Source: Pseudomonadota bacterium
GTDB lineage: Bacteria; Pseudomonadota; Gammaproteobacteria; Burkholderiales; Burkholderiaceae_C
Assembly: GCA_021805805.1 (NCBI GenBank)
Contig: JAJZEB010000014.1
Span: forward strand, 1-47,807
Direction: 5' to 3'
DNA length: 47,807 nucleotides
The stretch's first letter is position 1, and every line of letters starts with the position of its first letter. A program made the translations under genes and the position numbers. The notes under the pieces are model-generated. The model made no database searches. It saw nothing but the letters and a program-made list of their open reading frames with translations, and was not told the origin of the DNA. This document shows positions 37,784 to 46,123 of the stretch, piece after piece.

Positions 37784-38167
37784 TCAGCTGGCGACGCCCA
37801 GATTGCGCGCCAGCCATGCGCCCAGCATCGCCGCGGCGATCGACAACACCACCGAGGCGGCGACGTACAGCGCAGCCTGGCCGAACTCGCCGGACTCGAA
37901 ACGCGTGACCACTTCGAGCGAGAACGTCGAGAACGTGGTGTAGGCGCCGAGCCCACCGGTCAGGATGCCCACGCGCAGTTCGGGGCTCATGGCGCTGCGC
38001 TCCAGCGTGGCAACGAACAGGAACCCCATCAGGAACGAGCCGAGCACATTGATCGACAGCGTGGCATACGGGAATCCGCGGCCGAACAGGCTCTGCACCA
38101 GCAAGGTCTGGCCGTAGCGCGCGAAGGCGCCGACGATCGCGAACACGGCAATGAACAGATAGGTCAT
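37784..38167 (-). CDS. crcB: Fluoride channel Fluc/CrcB
   Basis: The 127-residue protein with four membrane segments has the Fluc signatures GAFARYGQTL, SINVLGSFLMGF and GGLGAYTTFSTFSLE, with the Phe and Thr-Ser residues of the fluoride track. It works as a dual-topology dimer that exports fluoride. No fluoride riboswitch is visible upstream. Confidence 0.94.
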   Translation of the reverse strand: MTYLFIAVFAIVGAFARYGQTLLVQSLFGRGFPYATLSINVLGSFLMGFLFVATLERSAMSPELRVGILTGGLGAYTTFSTFSLEVVTRFESGEFGQAALYVAASVVLSIAAAMLGAWLARNLGVAS

Positions 38168-38672
38168 GACGATGGTGCGGACACGCGAACGCGCGCAAAC
38201 GAAACATCTACCGCGGCGCCGTCGCGCCGTCGGTCCTCGGGACCGGGATCGAGGAACCCGGATGCTGTGCATGTTACGGCTGCCGACGACGCCAGGCAGC
38301 GCAACGCTGCCCGCGCACGCGCGTTGCCCGCGTCCGGTGGGCAGCGCTCAAGGTCGATCGAGTCCGCTCAGGCGCACGCCGCGGGGAGCGCTGCGAACCG
38401 ATTGCCTGAGGTGCATCTCGTGCGGCCATGGTGCCCAATTATTAGGCCCGGTTTCAATTGCGCGCTGGAATATTCCGATGCCATTTTGATCAGCGCGCCA
38501 TTTACTGCGCGCACTGCATGGAGGGCAAATACCCTTTTTTTCGAGGGCTTCCAACACGTCGTTAACCGATCCGAATGCGTTCGGTGGCTAAATTCATCAA
38601 AGCGCGCAGCCGCGCGCAATCGTCCGTCCGGGGGTCGCCCGGCGGCCCCCCATGCAGCAGGAGAAAACCGAG
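38168..38672. other. Intergenic region between crcB and the esterase, no gene seen
   Basis: About 505 bp with no convincing gene on either strand. The right half (from about 38430) is richer in A+T than its surroundings and includes a 10-bp palindrome GGAATATTCC at 38467-38476 and a T-run near 38531, which fits a promoter or leader for the esterase gene. The left half is G+C rich leader of crcB. Confidence 0.5.
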
Positions 38673-40358
38673 ATGCAGCACGATTTCAGATGCAGCGCCG
38701 CAGCACGCACTTGGCGCGCCGGCGTGGCCGCCTGCTTGCGCGCGGTCAGCGCACTGCTGCTGGCCGTGACGGCGTGCGGCGCCGCGGCGGCGCCGACCCC
38801 GCACCGGGTGCGCATCGCGGACGGCGTCCTGCAGGGTGCCGAGTTCCACGGCGTGCTTGAATTCCGCGGCATCCCGTACGCACGCGCTCCAATCGGCGCG
38901 CTGCGCTGGCACGCGCCGCTTCCGGCGCGACCCTGGCGCGGCGTGCGCGACGCGACCCGCTATGGACACGCGTGCCCGCAACTCGAACGCTTCGGCCTGA
39001 CCGACAGCAGCCTCGACGAGAACTGCCTGACGCTGAACGTCGCCGTGCCGCCCGCTGCAGCCGACGCCGGCCGCGGCGCCAGGCCGGTGCTGGTCTGGAT
39101 CCACGGCGGCGCGTTCGTCGGCGGCTCGAGCGACCTGTACCGCCTCGACGCGCTGGCGCGGCAGGGCATCGTCGTGGTCTCGATCAACTATCGGCTCGGC
39201 GTTTTCGGCTTCATGCCGACGACCGCGTTCGCAGCCGCCGACAACGGCGCTTATGCGCTCGAGGACCAGCGGCTGGCGTTGCACTGGGTGCAGCGCAACA
39301 TCGCGGCGTTCGGCGGCGACCCGCGCAACGCCACGCTGGCCGGTGAATCGGCCGGAGCCGCGTCGATCTGCATGCAGCTCGGCGCGCCGCAGCAGGTCAA
39401 GGGCCTGTTCGACCGCGCGCTGCTGATCAGCGCCGGGTGCATGCAGCCGATGCCCACGGTGGCCGAGGCCGAGCAGGCGATCGGCGCAAAGGTGATGCGC
39501 GCGGTCGGCTGCACCCAGCGCTCAACCGCGCTGCAGTGTCTGCGCCGGACTCCGGTCGACGCGCTGCTGCGCGCCGGAGATGTGTTGAGCCGCAAACAGG
39601 TGATGAGCTTCAGTCCCAGCGTCGGCAGCAGCCTCGTGCCGCGCCAGATCGGCGCAGCGCTGCGCAGCGGCGACTTCCTGCACGTGCCGCTGCTGATCGG
39701 CGGCGAGCACGATGAGATCCGGCTGTACATCGCGTACGCCGAACAGGCCGGCGACCACGTCACGCGGTCCAATTACCTGCAGCATCTGCGGGCCATCTAC
39801 TCCGACAATGCGGCGCGCGTCGCTGCCGAATATCCGATCGCCGACGGAGCTTCGCCTCCCGCGGTCTTCGGCTCGCTGCGCTCAGACTACGATCCCACGC
39901 TGGGCATCAATCACTGCCTGTACCTGCAAGGTGCCTCGGTGATCGAGCGGCACGGCGTGCCGGTGCACCTGTTCGAGTTCGCCGACCCGGACGCGCCGGT
40001 GCTGGGAATCGGCATCACCCGCCACCCCGACCCGGGAATGCCGCTCGGCGCGGTGCACTCGGCGATGCTCGGCTACCTGTTCCCGCACTTCTCGAACACC
40101 GCGCGCGTCGATGCGCCGGCGCTGTCGCCCGCAGCGCACGCGCTGTCGCGGCAAATGCTCGCGATGATCGGCAATTTCGTCCGCAACGGACAACCGGGAG
40201 GCAGCCACGGAGTGCCCGAGTGGCCGGGCGACAACGGCGGCACCGTGTCGATGCAGTTCGCGCCGGGCCGGGTCCGGCTCGTCGATCCGGGCGCCGAACA
40301 CCGCTGCGGGTTCTGGAAACAGCTGTACCCGACCGCGCTCGATGCGATCGGACGTTGA
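38673..40358 (+). CDS. Secreted type-B carboxylesterase
   Basis: The 561-residue protein is a carboxylesterase/lipase of the type-B family. It has an N-terminal signal segment (RAVSALLLAVTACGAAAA), RGIPYARAPIGALRWHAP, the oxyanion region VWIHGGAFVGGSSDLY, the nucleophile Ser226 in GESAGAAS, a probable acid in GGEHDEIRL and the catalytic His462 in GAVHSAM. The ATG at 38673 has an AGGAG site upstream; the ATG at 38652 has none. It converges on the glycosyltransferase gene with 58 bp between, and its substrate is unknown. Confidence 0.9.
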   Translation: MQHDFRCSAAARTWRAGVAACLRAVSALLLAVTACGAAAAPTPHRVRIADGVLQGAEFHGVLEFRGIPYARAPIGALRWHAPLPARPWRGVRDATRYGHACPQLERFGLTDSSLDENCLTLNVAVPPAAADAGRGARPVLVWIHGGAFVGGSSDLYRLDALARQGIVVVSINYRLGVFGFMPTTAFAAADNGAYALEDQRLALHWVQRNIAAFGGDPRNATLAGESAGAASICMQLGAPQQVKGLFDRALLISAGCMQPMPTVAEAEQAIGAKVMRAVGCTQRSTALQCLRRTPVDALLRAGDVLSRKQVMSFSPSVGSSLVPRQIGAALRSGDFLHVPLLIGGEHDEIRLYIAYAEQAGDHVTRSNYLQHLRAIYSDNAARVAAEYPIADGASPPAVFGSLRSDYDPTLGINHCLYLQGASVIERHGVPVHLFEFADPDAPVLGIGITRHPDPGMPLGAVHSAMLGYLFPHFSNTARVDAPALSPAAHALSRQMLAMIGNFVRNGQPGGSHGVPEWPGDNGGTVSMQFAPGRVRLVDPGAEHRCGFWKQLYPTALDAIGR

Positions 40359-40416
40359 AAGCCGACCGCTGCGCGCGTGCGGCGCGCGCGCCGGCGCCGC
40401 GCACCACGGCCCCGGA

Positions 40417-42294
40417 TCAGGCCGTGCAGGCGACCCCGGAGGCGGCGCCGGACAGCCGCGGCTGCAGCCTGGCCAGCAGTTCGCGACCCAGGATATCCGC
40501 GCGCCCCTGATACAGCACGCGGACTTTGTCGGGCCCGGCGTGGGCGCGCCTGAGGTCGGCGCGCAATGCGTCGTCGTTGATCAGGCGTACTGCGGCCGCC
40601 ACGTAGGAGTCGACGTCGTGCGCGACCAGCCAGTCGGGAAACCCGAGGCGCCGGAACAGCGCACCGTCGATGCACGCGTGCACCTCCCGGCCACCGCGGC
40701 ACACGCCGACCAGCCCTGCGGCAACGGTGTCGACGATGCCGTTGGTGTTGCCGAACGGGAACGGATTGACGAACAGGTCGCACGCTGCGATGCACTGCAT
40801 GTACTGCGCATACGGCTGCTGGCCGTGCACCACCGCGCGCGTGCCCAGTTGGCTCGACACCGCGTGGACCACCTGCTCGCGCACCAGCCCGACCGCCTGC
40901 CCGACCAGGAAATGAAAGCGGACCTGGCGTGCGCAGCCATCGGCGATGCGTACCAGCGCGGCGAGGAAGCCCGGATTGAGCTTCATCGTCGTCGCGGCGA
41001 CCGCGATCTCGACCACCTCCGGATGCGGGCGGATCGCTGCGGGCAGTTGCAATCCGTCCATTCCTGCCGGCGGCCGGTACGGCATGCCGTCGCTCGGAAG
41101 CAACAGCAATTGTTCGCTGAAACACTCGGGGTCGCCGACGTAGTCTTCCTCGACGACTGCGTAGTCCATATCCGGCGACAAGGTCGTCGCCGGATGGCCG
41201 AGCGCGAACACCTGCAGTGGCGCGAGCCGCAGGTTGGAGAGGAACATGGTCAACGGAAACATCCCGACACTGGGCATGTACAGCGCATGCGCGCCTTCGC
41301 GCCGCGCATAGTCGGCGATGAAGTGCAGTTGAGCGGCCAGGCCGCCTTCGGTCGGCAGTTCGACAAAGCTGTCGAACACCGCACGGCCGGCGGCGTCGAC
41401 GCCCTGCTGCCCGATGCCGACGACGCGAAAGCACGCGCGCGCCGCCTCCAGGGTGCGCGAATGGGTGCGGTAGATCGAGTGCGTGGCGTTGAACCATTCG
41501 AGCACCACCAGCAGCAGCGGCTTGCCGCCGGGCGCGGGCGGCGGCGGTGACGGCGGCGCAGGCGCCAGTCCCATCTGCGCCAGCTTGCGCCGGATCAGCG
41601 CGTTGATCGGCCGCTTGATCGCGTGCTTGTCGGCGCGGTCGGCGTAGCTGCAATGCATGTACGCGTCGTGCAGGATCGCCGACGGTAGCGCGTCCAGATC
41701 GTCGATCTGGTCCAGCCTCGACGCCAGCCACGGCAACAGCACCTCGCGCTTGGCATGCGCATCGATCGAGCCGTGAAAACGCGGCGCGAGCAGGCTCAGC
41801 GCCATGCCGGCGGCCAGCGTGCGGTCGGCTTTCCACAGCGCGTCCAGATCGAGCGGAACCCGCGAGTCGCCGTTGAACAGCAGGCACAGCTTGGGCAAAT
41901 CGTCCTTGCGCACTTCGAGCGCCGCGCCGGTCGGGCCGCGCACGTTCATGGCACGCAGCACCGCGTCGGCGTTGCGCAACGGACTGGCCGCGAACAGCGC
42001 GCCGAGCCAGCGGTGCAGATTCAGCAGCTGCGCGACACCTGAAGGCCCCAGCGTGAAACCGGGATCGGCGAACAGACTCAGGGTCGCCGCAGCGATTCGC
42101 GACAGCACGTGGGCATCGATCTCGTCGGCGCGCAAACCGGCTGCCGAGGGCGGCGCCGAAAACACCTTGCCGAAACACCCGAAATGCGCGTCCAGCGCCT
42201 GCAACAGGCGCAACAGCTCCTGCGCCGCCGGCTCATGCGCGCGCCGGTAGACGTGGTATTCGTAGCGTTCGAGATCGAAGCCTTCAGACTGCAT
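40417..42294 (-). CDS. HMW1C-like cytoplasmic N-glycosyltransferase (GT41)
   Basis: The 625-residue protein matches HMW1C-type transferases, which add hexose from UDP-sugars to Asn in N-X-S/T sites of adhesins before export. An N-terminal all-helical domain is followed by a Pro-rich linker and a GT-B fold: YMPSVGMFPLTMFLSNLRLA, LQVFALGHPATTLS, VVEEDYVGDPECFSE and LPSDGMPYRPPA. The UDP-site residues of the Actinobacillus homologue (Thr438, Lys441, Asn521, Asp525, as I recall) appear here as Thr435, Lys438, Asn518 and Asp522 in TTMKLNP and NTNGIVD, a constant offset of three. No signal peptide. AGGAGG lies 8 nt before the ATG. Divergent from the autotransporter gene at 42731. Confidence 0.92.
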   Translation of the reverse strand: MQSEGFDLERYEYHVYRRAHEPAAQELLRLLQALDAHFGCFGKVFSAPPSAAGLRADEIDAHVLSRIAAATLSLFADPGFTLGPSGVAQLLNLHRWLGALFAASPLRNADAVLRAMNVRGPTGAALEVRKDDLPKLCLLFNGDSRVPLDLDALWKADRTLAAGMALSLLAPRFHGSIDAHAKREVLLPWLASRLDQIDDLDALPSAILHDAYMHCSYADRADKHAIKRPINALIRRKLAQMGLAPAPPSPPPPAPGGKPLLLVVLEWFNATHSIYRTHSRTLEAARACFRVVGIGQQGVDAAGRAVFDSFVELPTEGGLAAQLHFIADYARREGAHALYMPSVGMFPLTMFLSNLRLAPLQVFALGHPATTLSPDMDYAVVEEDYVGDPECFSEQLLLLPSDGMPYRPPAGMDGLQLPAAIRPHPEVVEIAVAATTMKLNPGFLAALVRIADGCARQVRFHFLVGQAVGLVREQVVHAVSSQLGTRAVVHGQQPYAQYMQCIAACDLFVNPFPFGNTNGIVDTVAAGLVGVCRGGREVHACIDGALFRRLGFPDWLVAHDVDSYVAAAVRLINDDALRADLRRAHAGPDKVRVLYQGRADILGRELLARLQPRLSGAASGVACTA

Positions 42295-42509
42295 TGCGAT
42301 GTCCTCCTGACAGGCACCAGGCACGCGCCCGACGCGCAGCCTGCGCTGCGTTCGCCTGGCGCGCGCAGCTTGTTTTCCAGGATTTGAAAATTAACACGCG
42401 CCCATTCTGCGGCCCGTTTCATGCGAAATTCCCGGGCGTGATTCCTGCGTCAACGCCGCCGCCCCGCTCAGGCAAACCCCATTCACGCATCGCGCGATCC
42501 GCAGCCGCA

Positions 42510-42540
42510 TTTGATGTAACCATTTGTAGAAACCATCAAA
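42510..42540. promoter_or_regulatory. Inverted repeat in the divergent region
   Basis: TTTGATG and CATCAAA form perfect 7-bp arms 17 bp apart. Spacing is far too large for an FNR box. It could be a regulator site with two half-sites about two helical turns apart, or chance. Confidence 0.35.
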
Positions 42541-42636
42541 CCGCCTCCGAGACGACGACGCCGATCCTTCTCTTATTATCGCGACGCGATCCCTGGAACG
42601 CGACCGTGGATCAGCTAATCCATTTTTAATCGGCAA

Positions 42637-42664
42637 TAGACCGGGTCCTCCATTTGTTTATACA
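42637..42664 (+). promoter_or_regulatory. Candidate promoter of the autotransporter
   Basis: TAGACC, a 16-bp spacer and TATACA give a moderate sigma-70 match, predicting an untranslated leader of about 60 nt before the AAGGAG ribosome site. Confidence 0.4.
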
Positions 42665-42730
42665 GACCGCGCCGCAGAATACCTGCATATCTTGGACCGC
42701 GCGTTTGAATCAACCTGAAGGAGTTTGACC

Positions 42731-45682
42731 ATGACCCAGCTGCGTGCTCGCAACCCGCGTCGCAACGCTTTGTCCGTCGGTACGCCGTGCGCCTCGGCCG
42801 CCCGTACGCGGCGCCCTTTCGGCCCGCCATCGCAAACACTGCGCCTGACGCGCGTCGCGGTCTTGGTCGCGATCGCGGTCGCGCCGGCGCCGAGCGCGTT
42901 CGCGGCGACCTATTACGCCGACGCCTTGGACCACGGAGACGGCACGGTCCCCAATTCGTTCAGCGCCGCCATTGTGGATGCCAACGCCAATCCGCAGGCC
43001 AACGACACCGTGCTGTTCAACATCACGGTCCCCACATACACCGTTTTCGGCACCACGCTGCCGACGCTGACCACGCCGTTGATCGTGGGCAGTTCGCTGT
43101 CGGCGAACAACCTCATCATGCAGGTGAACGGGACCCCGCCGTCGCCGGCAATCCTCAGCCCGGCGCCTTTGACGACCAGCGGACAAGGCCTCTGGATCAT
43201 CGAGCCGGGTTTCGATTTCGTCGGCTCAGCCGGTCTAAACGCAACGGGGAACGGCCCCGGTGGCGCCGGCTTCACGTCCTTCGTGCTGAGTGGGAATCTG
43301 ACCAACAACGGGTCCATCACGGGCGGCAATGGAGCCGCCGGCGGGCAGCAGGCTGTGCCCGGATCGGCCGGCGCGAGCGGCGGCGCAGGCGGGGCCGGAC
43401 TGACGGTGCAAAGCGGAAGCATCGTGACGAACCAGAACGGTGCGTTGATCGTCGGCGGCGACGGCGGCAACGGAGCCCAGGGCGGCGGCGTCGGCATTGC
43501 GGTCGGCGGCAACGGGGGCGACAGTGGCGCCGGCGGTGTGGGCCTGACAGGGTCCGGCTTCACCCTGATCAATAACGGTGACGTCTACGGGGGGAATTCC
43601 GGAACGCCGGGCCAGGGAGGAACCGGAGATGTGAGCAACGGGTCGGCCGGAAATGATCCCCCCGGGGGCGCCGCCATCGTCGGCTCGGGGCTGACGATCA
43701 CCAACGCCGGCCTCATCGAAGGCGGGGTCGGTGGCAACTCAACTCCCGGGGCGGCGCTCGATCTGACCGGCGGCGCCAACACGCTGGACCTGACGGGCAA
43801 ATGGACCATGACCGGCGACATCCAGCTCGGGTCCGGCGCGTCGCTGGCGTTCACGCAGAACACTGCCCAGACGGTGAACAACACCGTCAGCGGCGCCGGA
43901 ACGCTGATCCAGAACGGCAGCGGCAACCTGACTCTGGACGGCAGCAACACCTACACCGGAGGCACCACGGTGCAGCAGGGCACGCTGATCGTCGGTGCGC
44001 CCGGCGCGCTGCCGGGCAGCGGAACCGTCACCGTGGCAGCTCCGGCCAGCCTCGATCTGGCCGCAGGCAATGAAACCGTGGGCGCGCTGGCCGGCGGCGG
44101 AACCGTGCTGCTGGGCAACGCGACGCTGACCATCGCCGCCGGAATCAGCCCGGTGACGCTGGCCGCCGCGGCGATGCCGCGCGCGTTCACCAGCGGAACC
44201 GGCGGAACCGGCGGAACCGCCTCCGTGCCGGTCGGCGCGACGACCGGATTCTCCGGCGTGCTGCAAGGCACAGGCGGCGTCGTCGTCGCCGGCGGCGCGC
44301 AGACCCTCTCGGGTGTCAACACCTACACCGGGCCGACCACCGTGCAGGCCGGCGCAACGCTGGCGCTGGCCGGCGCCGGATCGATCGCCACCTCAAGCTC
44401 GGTGACCAACGACGGCACCCTGGACGTGTCCACCGCCAACGGCAACGTGACCCTGAGCAGCTTCACCCAGGGCTCCGGCGGTACGCTGGTCATGCGCGTG
44501 CTGCCGAGCGCAGACCAGCAGCTGCACGTGAACGGCACCGCGACGCTGGGCGGCGCGCTGGCGCTGACCGGAACCAAGGCCCAGTACGCCGACGGCCTGA
44601 TGCCGCTGCTGACCGCGGGCGGAGGCATCAGCGGAAACTTCGCTTCGGTCTACGGCACCGGCTCGCTGACCAACGCGTATGCCTTGAGCCTGCACAACGT
44701 CAACGGTGTGCTCGAGTTGCTGCTGACACGGCTGGCACCGCGAAGCGGCGACACCAACGCCGCCATCGCGGCCCTGGGCGGAGCGCTGCACGCGCCGTTC
44801 GCGCTCGGCTCGGCAGCGCTCGACATCGACCTGAACACCGATTGCAGCGCCTTCGACGAGCACGGCGTGTGCCTGGGTGCCGGGGGCCGCTACACGGTGA
44901 TCGACAGCAGCGGGCCGCACGAGGCTGCGGCCAAGGTGTTCGGCGGCTACAGCATCGACGACCACCTGCGCGTCGGCGGCTGGGCCGACCAGGGAGTCAA
45001 CACCAGCCTGAACCCGGGGCTGGTGAAAACCGACTCGACCAATCCGATCATCGGCGCCTACGGAGTGTGGACGCAGCACCCGGGCAGCAACGGCTACGCC
45101 GTGCGCGTGGCCGGTGGCTACGGCAACCGCCACCTGACGCTGACGCGCCCGGTCATCAACGGCTCGGAGGCCGGCACGGGCTCGTCCGCGTTCACCGTAC
45201 AGGGAGCCAGTGCCGTCGTCAGCTACGACAATGCCATCGAAGACGGTTGGACCGTCGCACCGTACGCCGGGCTGCGCTATACGAAGGAATCGCTGGGTGC
45301 CTATACCGAGAACCAAATCCTGGGCCAGGTCGATTACCCGCTGAGCTACGGAAGCCTCAGCGAAACCTTCACCACAGCGCTTGTCGGGACGTCGTTCCGC
45401 GGCCCGATCAGCGAGCACGTCACCGCGTCGCTCTCGGCCGGAATCGAACAGGATCTGTCCAGTTCGGGAGGCAGCGCGACGGTTTCGAACCCGGACATCG
45501 CGAACCTCGCCCCATTGGTCATTTCCAGCGAACTGCAGCACCTTCGCCCAGACCTGTCGGCACACGCCAGCTACGCGATCGACAACCGGGAGCAGATCGT
45601 GTTCGGCATCGGCTACAGCCAGCAGCCTTTCGACACCCACGGCGTGACCTACACCGCAATCAACTACATCGCGAGCTTCTAA
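42731..45682 (+). CDS. Classical autotransporter with sequon-rich passenger
   Basis: The 983-residue protein has a long signal region (about 59 residues, hydrophobic core VAVLVAIAVAPAPSAFA), a passenger to about residue 700 and a C-terminal beta-barrel ending in Phe (NYIASF). The passenger starts with a CSLREA-like segment, continues with Gly/Asn-rich repeats (GGDGGNGAQGGGVG) and has at least two passenger-associated strand repeats (near 389-420, NLTLDGSNTYTGGTTVQQG, and near 517-550, SGVNTYTGPTTVQAG), predicting a beta-helix. I count 15 N-X-S/T sites in the passenger and 2 in the barrel. Two cysteines, 705 and 714, lie at the passenger-barrel junction. The ATG follows AAGGAG. Its neighbour is an HMW1C-like glycosyltransferase, so the passenger is a likely glycosylation substrate; adhesin function is inferred. 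Confidence 0.9.
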   Translation: MTQLRARNPRRNALSVGTPCASAARTRRPFGPPSQTLRLTRVAVLVAIAVAPAPSAFAATYYADALDHGDGTVPNSFSAAIVDANANPQANDTVLFNITVPTYTVFGTTLPTLTTPLIVGSSLSANNLIMQVNGTPPSPAILSPAPLTTSGQGLWIIEPGFDFVGSAGLNATGNGPGGAGFTSFVLSGNLTNNGSITGGNGAAGGQQAVPGSAGASGGAGGAGLTVQSGSIVTNQNGALIVGGDGGNGAQGGGVGIAVGGNGGDSGAGGVGLTGSGFTLINNGDVYGGNSGTPGQGGTGDVSNGSAGNDPPGGAAIVGSGLTITNAGLIEGGVGGNSTPGAALDLTGGANTLDLTGKWTMTGDIQLGSGASLAFTQNTAQTVNNTVSGAGTLIQNGSGNLTLDGSNTYTGGTTVQQGTLIVGAPGALPGSGTVTVAAPASLDLAAGNETVGALAGGGTVLLGNATLTIAAGISPVTLAAAAMPRAFTSGTGGTGGTASVPVGATTGFSGVLQGTGGVVVAGGAQTLSGVNTYTGPTTVQAGATLALAGAGSIATSSSVTNDGTLDVSTANGNVTLSSFTQGSGGTLVMRVLPSADQQLHVNGTATLGGALALTGTKAQYADGLMPLLTAGGGISGNFASVYGTGSLTNAYALSLHNVNGVLELLLTRLAPRSGDTNAAIAALGGALHAPFALGSAALDIDLNTDCSAFDEHGVCLGAGGRYTVIDSSGPHEAAAKVFGGYSIDDHLRVGGWADQGVNTSLNPGLVKTDSTNPIIGAYGVWTQHPGSNGYAVRVAGGYGNRHLTLTRPVINGSEAGTGSSAFTVQGASAVVSYDNAIEDGWTVAPYAGLRYTKESLGAYTENQILGQVDYPLSYGSLSETFTTALVGTSFRGPISEHVTASLSAGIEQDLSSSGGSATVSNPDIANLAPLVISSELQHLRPDLSAHASYAIDNREQIVFGIGYSQQPFDTHGVTYTAINYIASF

Positions 45683-45691
45683 GCGCCCCCA

Positions 45692-45747
45692 GGGCCGGGC
45701 TGCGCCCGGCCCGCCCCGGCCCGCCCCGGCCCGCCCCGGCCCGCGGG
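45692..45747. repeat. GC hairpin and 10-bp tandem repeats after the autotransporter
   Basis: A 9-bp stem GGGCCGGGC/GCCCGGCCC with a 3-nt loop (45692-45712) runs into three exact and one partial copies of GGCCCGCCCC (45708-45747). The hairpin has no T-run. It may stall RNA polymerase, but is not a standard terminator. Confidence 0.7.
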
Positions 45748-45808
45748 CTCACCCTCTGCACGGCCGCCGCCCGGCGGTCTACACTGGGCCCGTACCAGGA
45801 GGCCCGGA

Positions 45809-46123
45809 ATGCACAACGTCACCATCGCGCGCGTCTACGTCAAGGAAGGCGACAAGGTCCACGGCCACAACCTGCTGCGCGAGGTCTTCCACCTGCTGCA
45901 CGACGAGCAGAAGGTGCGCGGCGTCACGGTGTTCCGCGGCATCGCCGGTTTCGGCAGCCACGGCGAAGTGCACGCCGAGGATCTGCTGCGGCTCAGCGTG
46001 CACCTGCCGCTGGTCATCGAATTCTTCGACGCACCCGAGGTCATCGCCGAACTGCTGCCGCGGCTGCAGCAGCTGGTGCCATCGGGCCATATCGTGTCGT
46101 GGCCGGCACAGTGCACCGGCTGA
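45809..46123 (+). CDS. DUF190 (PII-like) protein
   Basis: The 104-residue protein matches the DUF190/COG1993 family, whose members adopt a PII-like ferredoxin fold: ARVYVKEGDKVHGHNLLREVF, then GVTVFRGIAGFGSHGEVHAEDLL, then LPLVIEFFDAPEVI. Function is unproven; the family is often encoded next to CrcB, and here crcB lies about 8 kb away at 37784 on the other strand. The start follows an AGGAGG-like site. Confidence 0.88.
   Translation: MHNVTIARVYVKEGDKVHGHNLLREVFHLLHDEQKVRGVTVFRGIAGFGSHGEVHAEDLLRLSVHLPLVIEFFDAPEVIAELLPRLQQLVPSGHIVSWPAQCTG

Follow-up and report, generated by a model that had tools for sequence, protein, structure and literature searches.

A divergent gene pair encoding an HMW1C-type N-glycosyltransferase and a classical autotransporter in two related Burkholderiales species

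The locus and its two genes

The window, i.e. the whole stretch of 47,807 nucleotides that was analysed, carries a gene for an HMW1C-type N-glycosyltransferase (NGT) and, on the opposite strand, a gene for an autotransporter (AT). Both genes are complete, and the two are transcribed away from each other (Table 1). About 110 bp just before the AT start, including an AAGGAG motif, align well with the corresponding sequence of a congener, here called G025. Scanning positions 40250-45900 gave no match to a sigma-70-like promoter (shuffle mean 0.5) and one terminator-like site, which is fewer than in the shuffled sequences (mean 3.7). The flanking genes that were scanned encode a carboxylesterase, a DUF190 protein and an AMP-binding enzyme. 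The adjacent tpsA (PF05860) and tpsB (PF03865) genes that define an HMW1-type two-partner secretion (TPS) locus were not found here.

Table 1. Features of the NGT-AT locus, in window coordinates
Feature	Position	Strand	Remarks
HMW1C-type N-glycosyltransferase (GT41)	40417..42294	-	PF18071 and PF18254; NF049992 618 bits; 3q3e 505 bits
Divergent intergenic region, 436 bp	42295..42730	.	Gap in G025 is 364 bp
Classical (type Va) autotransporter	42731..45682	+	ATG start kept in G025; orthologue L034:4485-7376
Long basic N-region and putative signal peptide, candidate cleavage after SAFA (residue 58)	42731..42904	+	Read by eye; conserved in G025
Passenger, Gly/Asn-rich beta-helix-type repeats	42905..44800	+	15 NX(S/T) up to residue 698; 12 are NXT
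Best PATR (PF12951) repeat	43904..43993	+	Residues 394-423 numbered from 42725
Linker and C-terminal beta-domain, final residue Phe	44738..45679	+	PF03797 at 44948-45583; 2 sequons

The NGT comprises 625 aa when counted from the ATG at 42294; a GTG at 42324 is an alternative upstream start. The Pfam domain scan detected both the HMW1C N-terminal domain and HMW1 domain 2, PF18071 with 67.8 bits and PF18254 with 86.4 bits, each above its cut-off. The match to the ApNGT structure 3q3e spans query residues 9-611, and a second solved NGT, 8p0q, matches across residues 10-611. NF049992 aligns with residues 18-621. Since its score stays below the equivalog cut-off of 1000 bits, we class the protein by sequence similarity as an NF049992 family homologue and do not assert equivalog status (UDP-glucose:protein N-beta-glucosyltransferase).

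The AT is 983 aa long. Its N-terminus shows a hydrophobic stretch ending in SAFA, read by eye only and present in G025 too; ESPR was not matched in a whole-protein hmmscan. The passenger contains PATR repeats (PF12951, 46.9 bits against a cut-off of 27). When the genomes were searched with the PF03797 model, the beta-domain scored 58.1 bits in the window and 46.6 bits in G025 (cut-off 26), while the same domain was absent from the whole-protein hmmscan of the window AT even at E<=1. For a profile of eight related C-termini, matches among the PDB sequences at E<=0.01 were confined to EstA (E 4.8e-4) and NalP (E 2.9e-3), both of which we take to be type Va barrels. In addition, AT relatives in two further genomes (G002 and G007) possess PF03797, and a profile built from the C-termini of these and of G009 joins them to the window C-terminus with an E-value of 2.6e-20. 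Based on the PF03797 score, the EstA and NalP matches and these relatives, we assign the protein to the classical type Va autotransporters. Two other classes were considered and dropped: a TpsA, as PF05860 is not in the AT, and a trimeric autotransporter, as hmmscan found no YadA-type domain in it. An AlphaFold2 model from a two-row alignment was of low confidence (pLDDT 40.7, pTM 0.38). The preliminary description of this DNA had proposed a GT41 enzyme of the HMW1C type and a PATR-type single-chain type Va autotransporter, divergent across 436 bp. The layout was correct, and both family assignments hold, given the domain scores above cut-off, the full-length match to solved NGTs and the C-terminal position of PF03797.

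Conservation of the pair and partners of related transferases

The divergent NGT-AT pair is also present in G025 (contig JAJZHS010000111.1, loci L021/L034). The NGTs of the two species are 81% identical and the ATs about 54-56%. G025 is a draft genome of 82% completeness, and its pair sits on a 7.6-kb contig. The same MFS gene flanks one side of the pair in both species; in the window, crcB and the carboxylesterase gene separate it from the NGT. Adjacency of crcB and DUF190 was found in all 29 DUF190 loci fetched, from 25 congeners including G025 among others (four further DUF190 hits were left out). In the window the esterase-NGT-AT block separates crcB (37784-38272), here on the opposite strand, from DUF190 (45809-46123). 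As crcB and DUF190 are joined in G025 but split by this block in the window, the NGT and AT genes are found together despite different flanks.

NGT homologues at E<=1e-60 were detected in 5 of the 28 genomes searched from the genus, in 11 of 399 from the order and in 6 of 369 from the class. At E<=1e-90 the phylum sample gave 6 of 398 genomes, and a sample from one other family 14 of 195. The genome of the window is itself counted in the genus, order, class and phylum figures, and the samples overlap. Only one of the four other NGT-bearing genomes of the genus, G025, has the divergent pair. The remaining three (G008, G010 and G015) have an NGT and no match to the window AT, and their NGT neighbours are of the TPS type, except for one G008 gene (C138) with no recognised partner. 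Conversely, G018 and G027, two genomes without an NGT, encode AT homologues, and the NGT is therefore not a requirement for the AT. That the pair would recur in a relative, as the preliminary description expected of a genuine association, was confirmed for one species. Both pair-bearing species are close relatives, and the sequon enrichment described below therefore does not represent two independent events.

To compare partners more widely, we looked for an AT in 52 NGT-bearing loci, the window among them, using barrel models of our own making together with a regular expression for PATR. The neighbourhoods differed in length, and contig ends truncated some of them. Only the window and L034 gave a match, and the divergent pair was in none of the other 50 neighbourhoods. 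PF03797 was found in 23 of 31 NGT-bearing genomes outside the genus, and by comparison of coordinates in none of the 31 within 25 kb of the NGT. These are the genomes with G handles, which supplied 34 of the scanned loci; L023-L033 come from named genomes outside this set. The nearest PF03797 beta-domain in this set (G260:C4:33753-34523) ends an open frame of 5541 codons about 26.5 kb from the NGT. Among the NGT loci examined in these two ways, the arrangement is thus distinct, as had been suggested.

We then labelled the partners of 53 NGT rows. Two are ATs, 25 are of the TPS type, two are type I secretion systems and 23 rows have no recognised partner, a label mostly given without a Pfam scan of the neighbours; one further row has a trimeric autotransporter on the same contig. 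The TPS labels were assigned by us, 13 of the 25 on Pfam hits (TPS, ShlB, POTRA_2, MBG/YDG/DUF5649 repeats) and 12 on arrangement and likeness. In a tree of the same 53 rows the window NGT and L034 are joined with an SH-aLRT of 100, followed by L035 from G008, without recognised partner, again with 100, and this group is nested among TPS-linked and partnerless NGTs. The tree was a quick one with SH-aLRT support only, which is 84-92 at deeper nodes, and it contains several long branches. Owing to the nested position the AT partner looks derived, a single gain being the simplest reading.

Sequons in the passenger and other candidate substrates

The AT contains 17 NX(S/T) sequons, 15 of them in the passenger, taken for counting as the 983 aa minus the last 285. 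Composition shuffles gave 8.6 expected sequons for the window passenger (p=0.013), and 9.2 expected against 25 observed for that of G025 (p<0.001). The excess in the window is thus real but modest. With 2.15 and 3.69 sequons per 100 aa, the two passengers are the densest of 22 rows; the 20 control passengers have a mean of 1.01 and a maximum of 1.69. These controls are related AT reading frames from 12 genomes without an NGT hit (among 14 loci fetched, L142 gave none and L131 two); several are cut by contig ends, and some resemble the window AT mainly through their PATR-type repeats. The pooled observed to expected counts are 40/17.8 for the pair and 157/145.9 for the controls, with a binomial p-value of 8e-5. 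Compared individually with the controls, G025 gave p=8e-5 and the window AT a borderline p=0.058, so the sequon case rests mostly on G025. In 574 passenger columns aligned four ways, the window has 14 sequons and G025 has 22, against 7 and 8 in the NGT-free relatives G018 and G027, whose ATs are 95% identical and hence nearly one control. The beta-domains are not enriched, with two sequons each in the window and G025, and the excess is confined to the passenger. Most of the TPS partners rich in sequons have higher densities than these (about 2.5-14 per 100 aa); one TPS partner, at L039, has 0.6.

We also tested site conservation as possible support for glycosylation, and it was not supportive. 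The window and G025 have 5 of 15 passenger sequons in common, and sequon Asn residues of the window are kept in G025 in 6 of 15 cases compared with 14 of 31 for other Asn residues. As the excess coincides with poorly conserved sites, it is the sequon content, judged from this comparison, and not the sequon position that is maintained. The earlier proposal that the NGT and AT form a substrate pair therefore stands in part: the passengers are enriched when pooled, and the window AT taken alone is marginal, with sites that are not preferentially conserved.

The NGT could be a working enzyme that lies beside the AT incidentally or by hitchhiking; in that case its real substrates would be found among other proteins that the cell exports, with the AT no more than a bystander. 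This explanation, which we consider unlikely, agrees with the site comparison above, with the large share of NGTs that by our labels have no recognised adjacent partner, and with lone NGTs that modify autotransporters encoded elsewhere (PMC5303269, in excerpt). G025 also encodes another Asn-rich protein, of 910 aa, which contains 24 sequons and matches the TPS domain weakly. However, the divergent pair is present in two species, and its ATs exceed their NGT-free relatives in sequons. Moreover, the other candidates in the window genome, as found by TPS-domain and PF03797 searches and not across the whole proteome, are not sequon-rich: for two TPS-domain proteins the densities are 0.79 and 0.39 sequons per 100 aa, and two other, partial PF03797 frames contain 7 sequons over 612 residues and 1 over 256. 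No type V protein in these searches was denser than the neighbouring AT itself.

In a different genome, G008, a TPS-domain protein (L207:2631-6185, contig C132) has 30 sequons in 1184 aa, about 12 above the composition expectation (p 0.003). It adjoins neither of the two NGTs of that genome, one of which is the partnerless L035, and is a candidate distant NGT substrate.

A second alternative holds that the excess arises only from the Gly/Asn-rich beta-helix repeats and that glycosylation has no part in it. Asn content is indeed raised in the two passengers (6.6 and 7.1%), many sequons are NGS or NGT triplets in Gly-rich repeats, and two control ATs have observed to expected ratios of 1.81 and 1.76, above the 1.74 of the window. 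The reversed motif [ST]XN, counted by hand sums, occurs 20 times in the pair and 118 times in the controls, giving sequon to reversed motif ratios of 40:20 (2.0) and 157:118 (1.3), a weaker contrast than that in density. On the other hand, the shuffles described above hold composition constant and still leave an excess, strong in G025 and weaker in the window, and the pooled comparison with the controls also argues against the repeats as the whole cause. We therefore regard this explanation as quite improbable.

Active-site residues, proposed mechanism and relation to known systems

Eight active-site positions were mapped onto the NGT, and seven are identical to AaNGT or ApNGT. R172, H209 and D210 correspond to AaNGT R177, H214 and D215, and H214, H272, K438 and N518 to ApNGT H219, H277, K441 and N521; the position of ApNGT H272 is occupied by Trp. 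R172 was mapped by script, the other residues were counted by hand on the 3q3e alignment, and the columns were tallied over the 53 NGT rows. We take ApNGT H219, H272, H277 and N521 to matter for the enzyme, N521 presumably being the counterpart of AaNGT N520. In AaNGT, R177 and D215 are the residues that read the Thr at sequon position +2 (PMC10507012, in excerpt, also the source for the role of Asn520), and K441A abolishes the activity of ApNGT (PMC5303269, in excerpt). That the NGT is degenerate or of a different acceptor chemistry would fit its NF049992 score below the equivalog cut-off and the Trp, but is very improbable, given a full-length frame without stops, the seven matching residues and the presence of Trp at this position in 43 of the 53 rows.

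We favour the reading, with a probability of roughly 0.7, that the two form a dedicated enzyme-substrate pair, in which the NGT would attach glucose to the AT passenger while this is still in the cytoplasm and secretion would follow. HMW1C enzymes are cytoplasmic and act on sequons with UDP-hexoses before Sec export (PMC3983070, in excerpt), and the proposed mechanism applies this mode of action to the present pair. The soluble NGT would transfer glucose from UDP-glucose to NX(S/T) Asn residues of the passenger, and a second hexose may be added too. The modified chain would then cross the inner membrane via Sec, its C-terminal beta-domain would insert in the outer membrane, and the passenger would be displayed as a glucosylated beta-helix, probably an adhesin. 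Against a dedicated pair, divergent genes need not be co-expressed.

Several known systems resemble this locus. In HMW1A/B/C of H. influenzae, EtpA/B/C and the Burkholderia TPS loci, an HMW1C-type NGT likewise adjoins its shown or presumed secreted substrate (PMC3983070, in excerpt). There a separate TpsB exports the partner, a TpsA, whereas the partner in the window is a single-chain type Va autotransporter, divergently encoded and with no TpsB beside it. The orphan NGTs of A. pleuropneumoniae, K. kingae and A. aphrophilus also act on autotransporters (PMC5303269 and PMC8151025, both in excerpt), trimeric ones in K. kingae and A. aphrophilus and autotransporter adhesins in A. pleuropneumoniae. 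Unlike the window gene, these ngt genes have no adhesin gene next to them, their substrates being encoded elsewhere. Aah/AIDA-I and TibC/TibA likewise combine a cytoplasmic glycosyltransferase with a classical autotransporter, some of them co-transcribed (PMC8151025, in excerpt), but Aah and TibC are unrelated BAHT enzymes that place heptose on Ser/Thr and are thought to recognise structure and not a sequon. HMW1C-like enzymes have been sorted into two groups, one encoded next to tpsA/tpsB and the other with no substrate gene nearby, and ApHMW1C prefers autotransporters (PMC3983070, in excerpt). NGT action on autotransporters has thus been reported before, and what appears new is the type of locus, a dedicated NGT-type Va pair. 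Searches of open-licence PMC papers showed no account of an NGT gene that adjoins the gene of a classical autotransporter. Such a pair would be a further HMW1C arrangement, consisting of two self-contained genes without a TpsB. Related ATs with and without a linked NGT within one genus would make it possible to ask by what route substrates are recruited and when glucosylation takes place relative to passenger folding and export, both of which are listed as open questions in PMC8151025 (in excerpt).

As to the origin of the pair, we tentatively suggest, at somewhat less than even odds, that an NGT whose group is mostly TPS-linked took over a classical AT that already existed and whose passenger then gained sequons, giving rise to a further class of HMW1C locus. 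If so, the ATs of NGT-free sister species would represent the unglycosylated state, and the genus would hold a natural before-and-after series of how a protein becomes an N-glycosylation substrate.

Some other NGT neighbourhoods deserve separate mention. At L085 and L086 (G077 C1 and G122 C2) the NGT lies inside a type I secretion cluster with an outer-membrane efflux protein, a fused double ABC transporter and HlyD, genes that were Pfam-scanned in L086 only. Next to it is encoded a protein of 997 aa with Big_9 domains and 61 sequons. This possible pairing of an NGT with type I secretion is arguably more unusual than the NGT-AT pair. In G010, a frame directly before the NGT (L036:9184-11775, contig C7) has a TpsB-type POTRA_2 domain followed by a DUF5649 match below cut-off, and contains 30 sequons; it is possibly an in-frame TpsB-TpsA fusion, created by deletion or misassembly. 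On contig C47 of the same genome (L039:4932-14660), the NGT is near a CHASE2 protein and a TPS-domain protein with a caspase-like Peptidase_C14 domain at its end and few sequons, 11 in 1850 aa. Finally, frames upstream of the NGT in Paraburkholderia (L023, L026, L028 and L033) reach 12.8-14.4 sequons per 100 aa, and the ATs measured are far lower.
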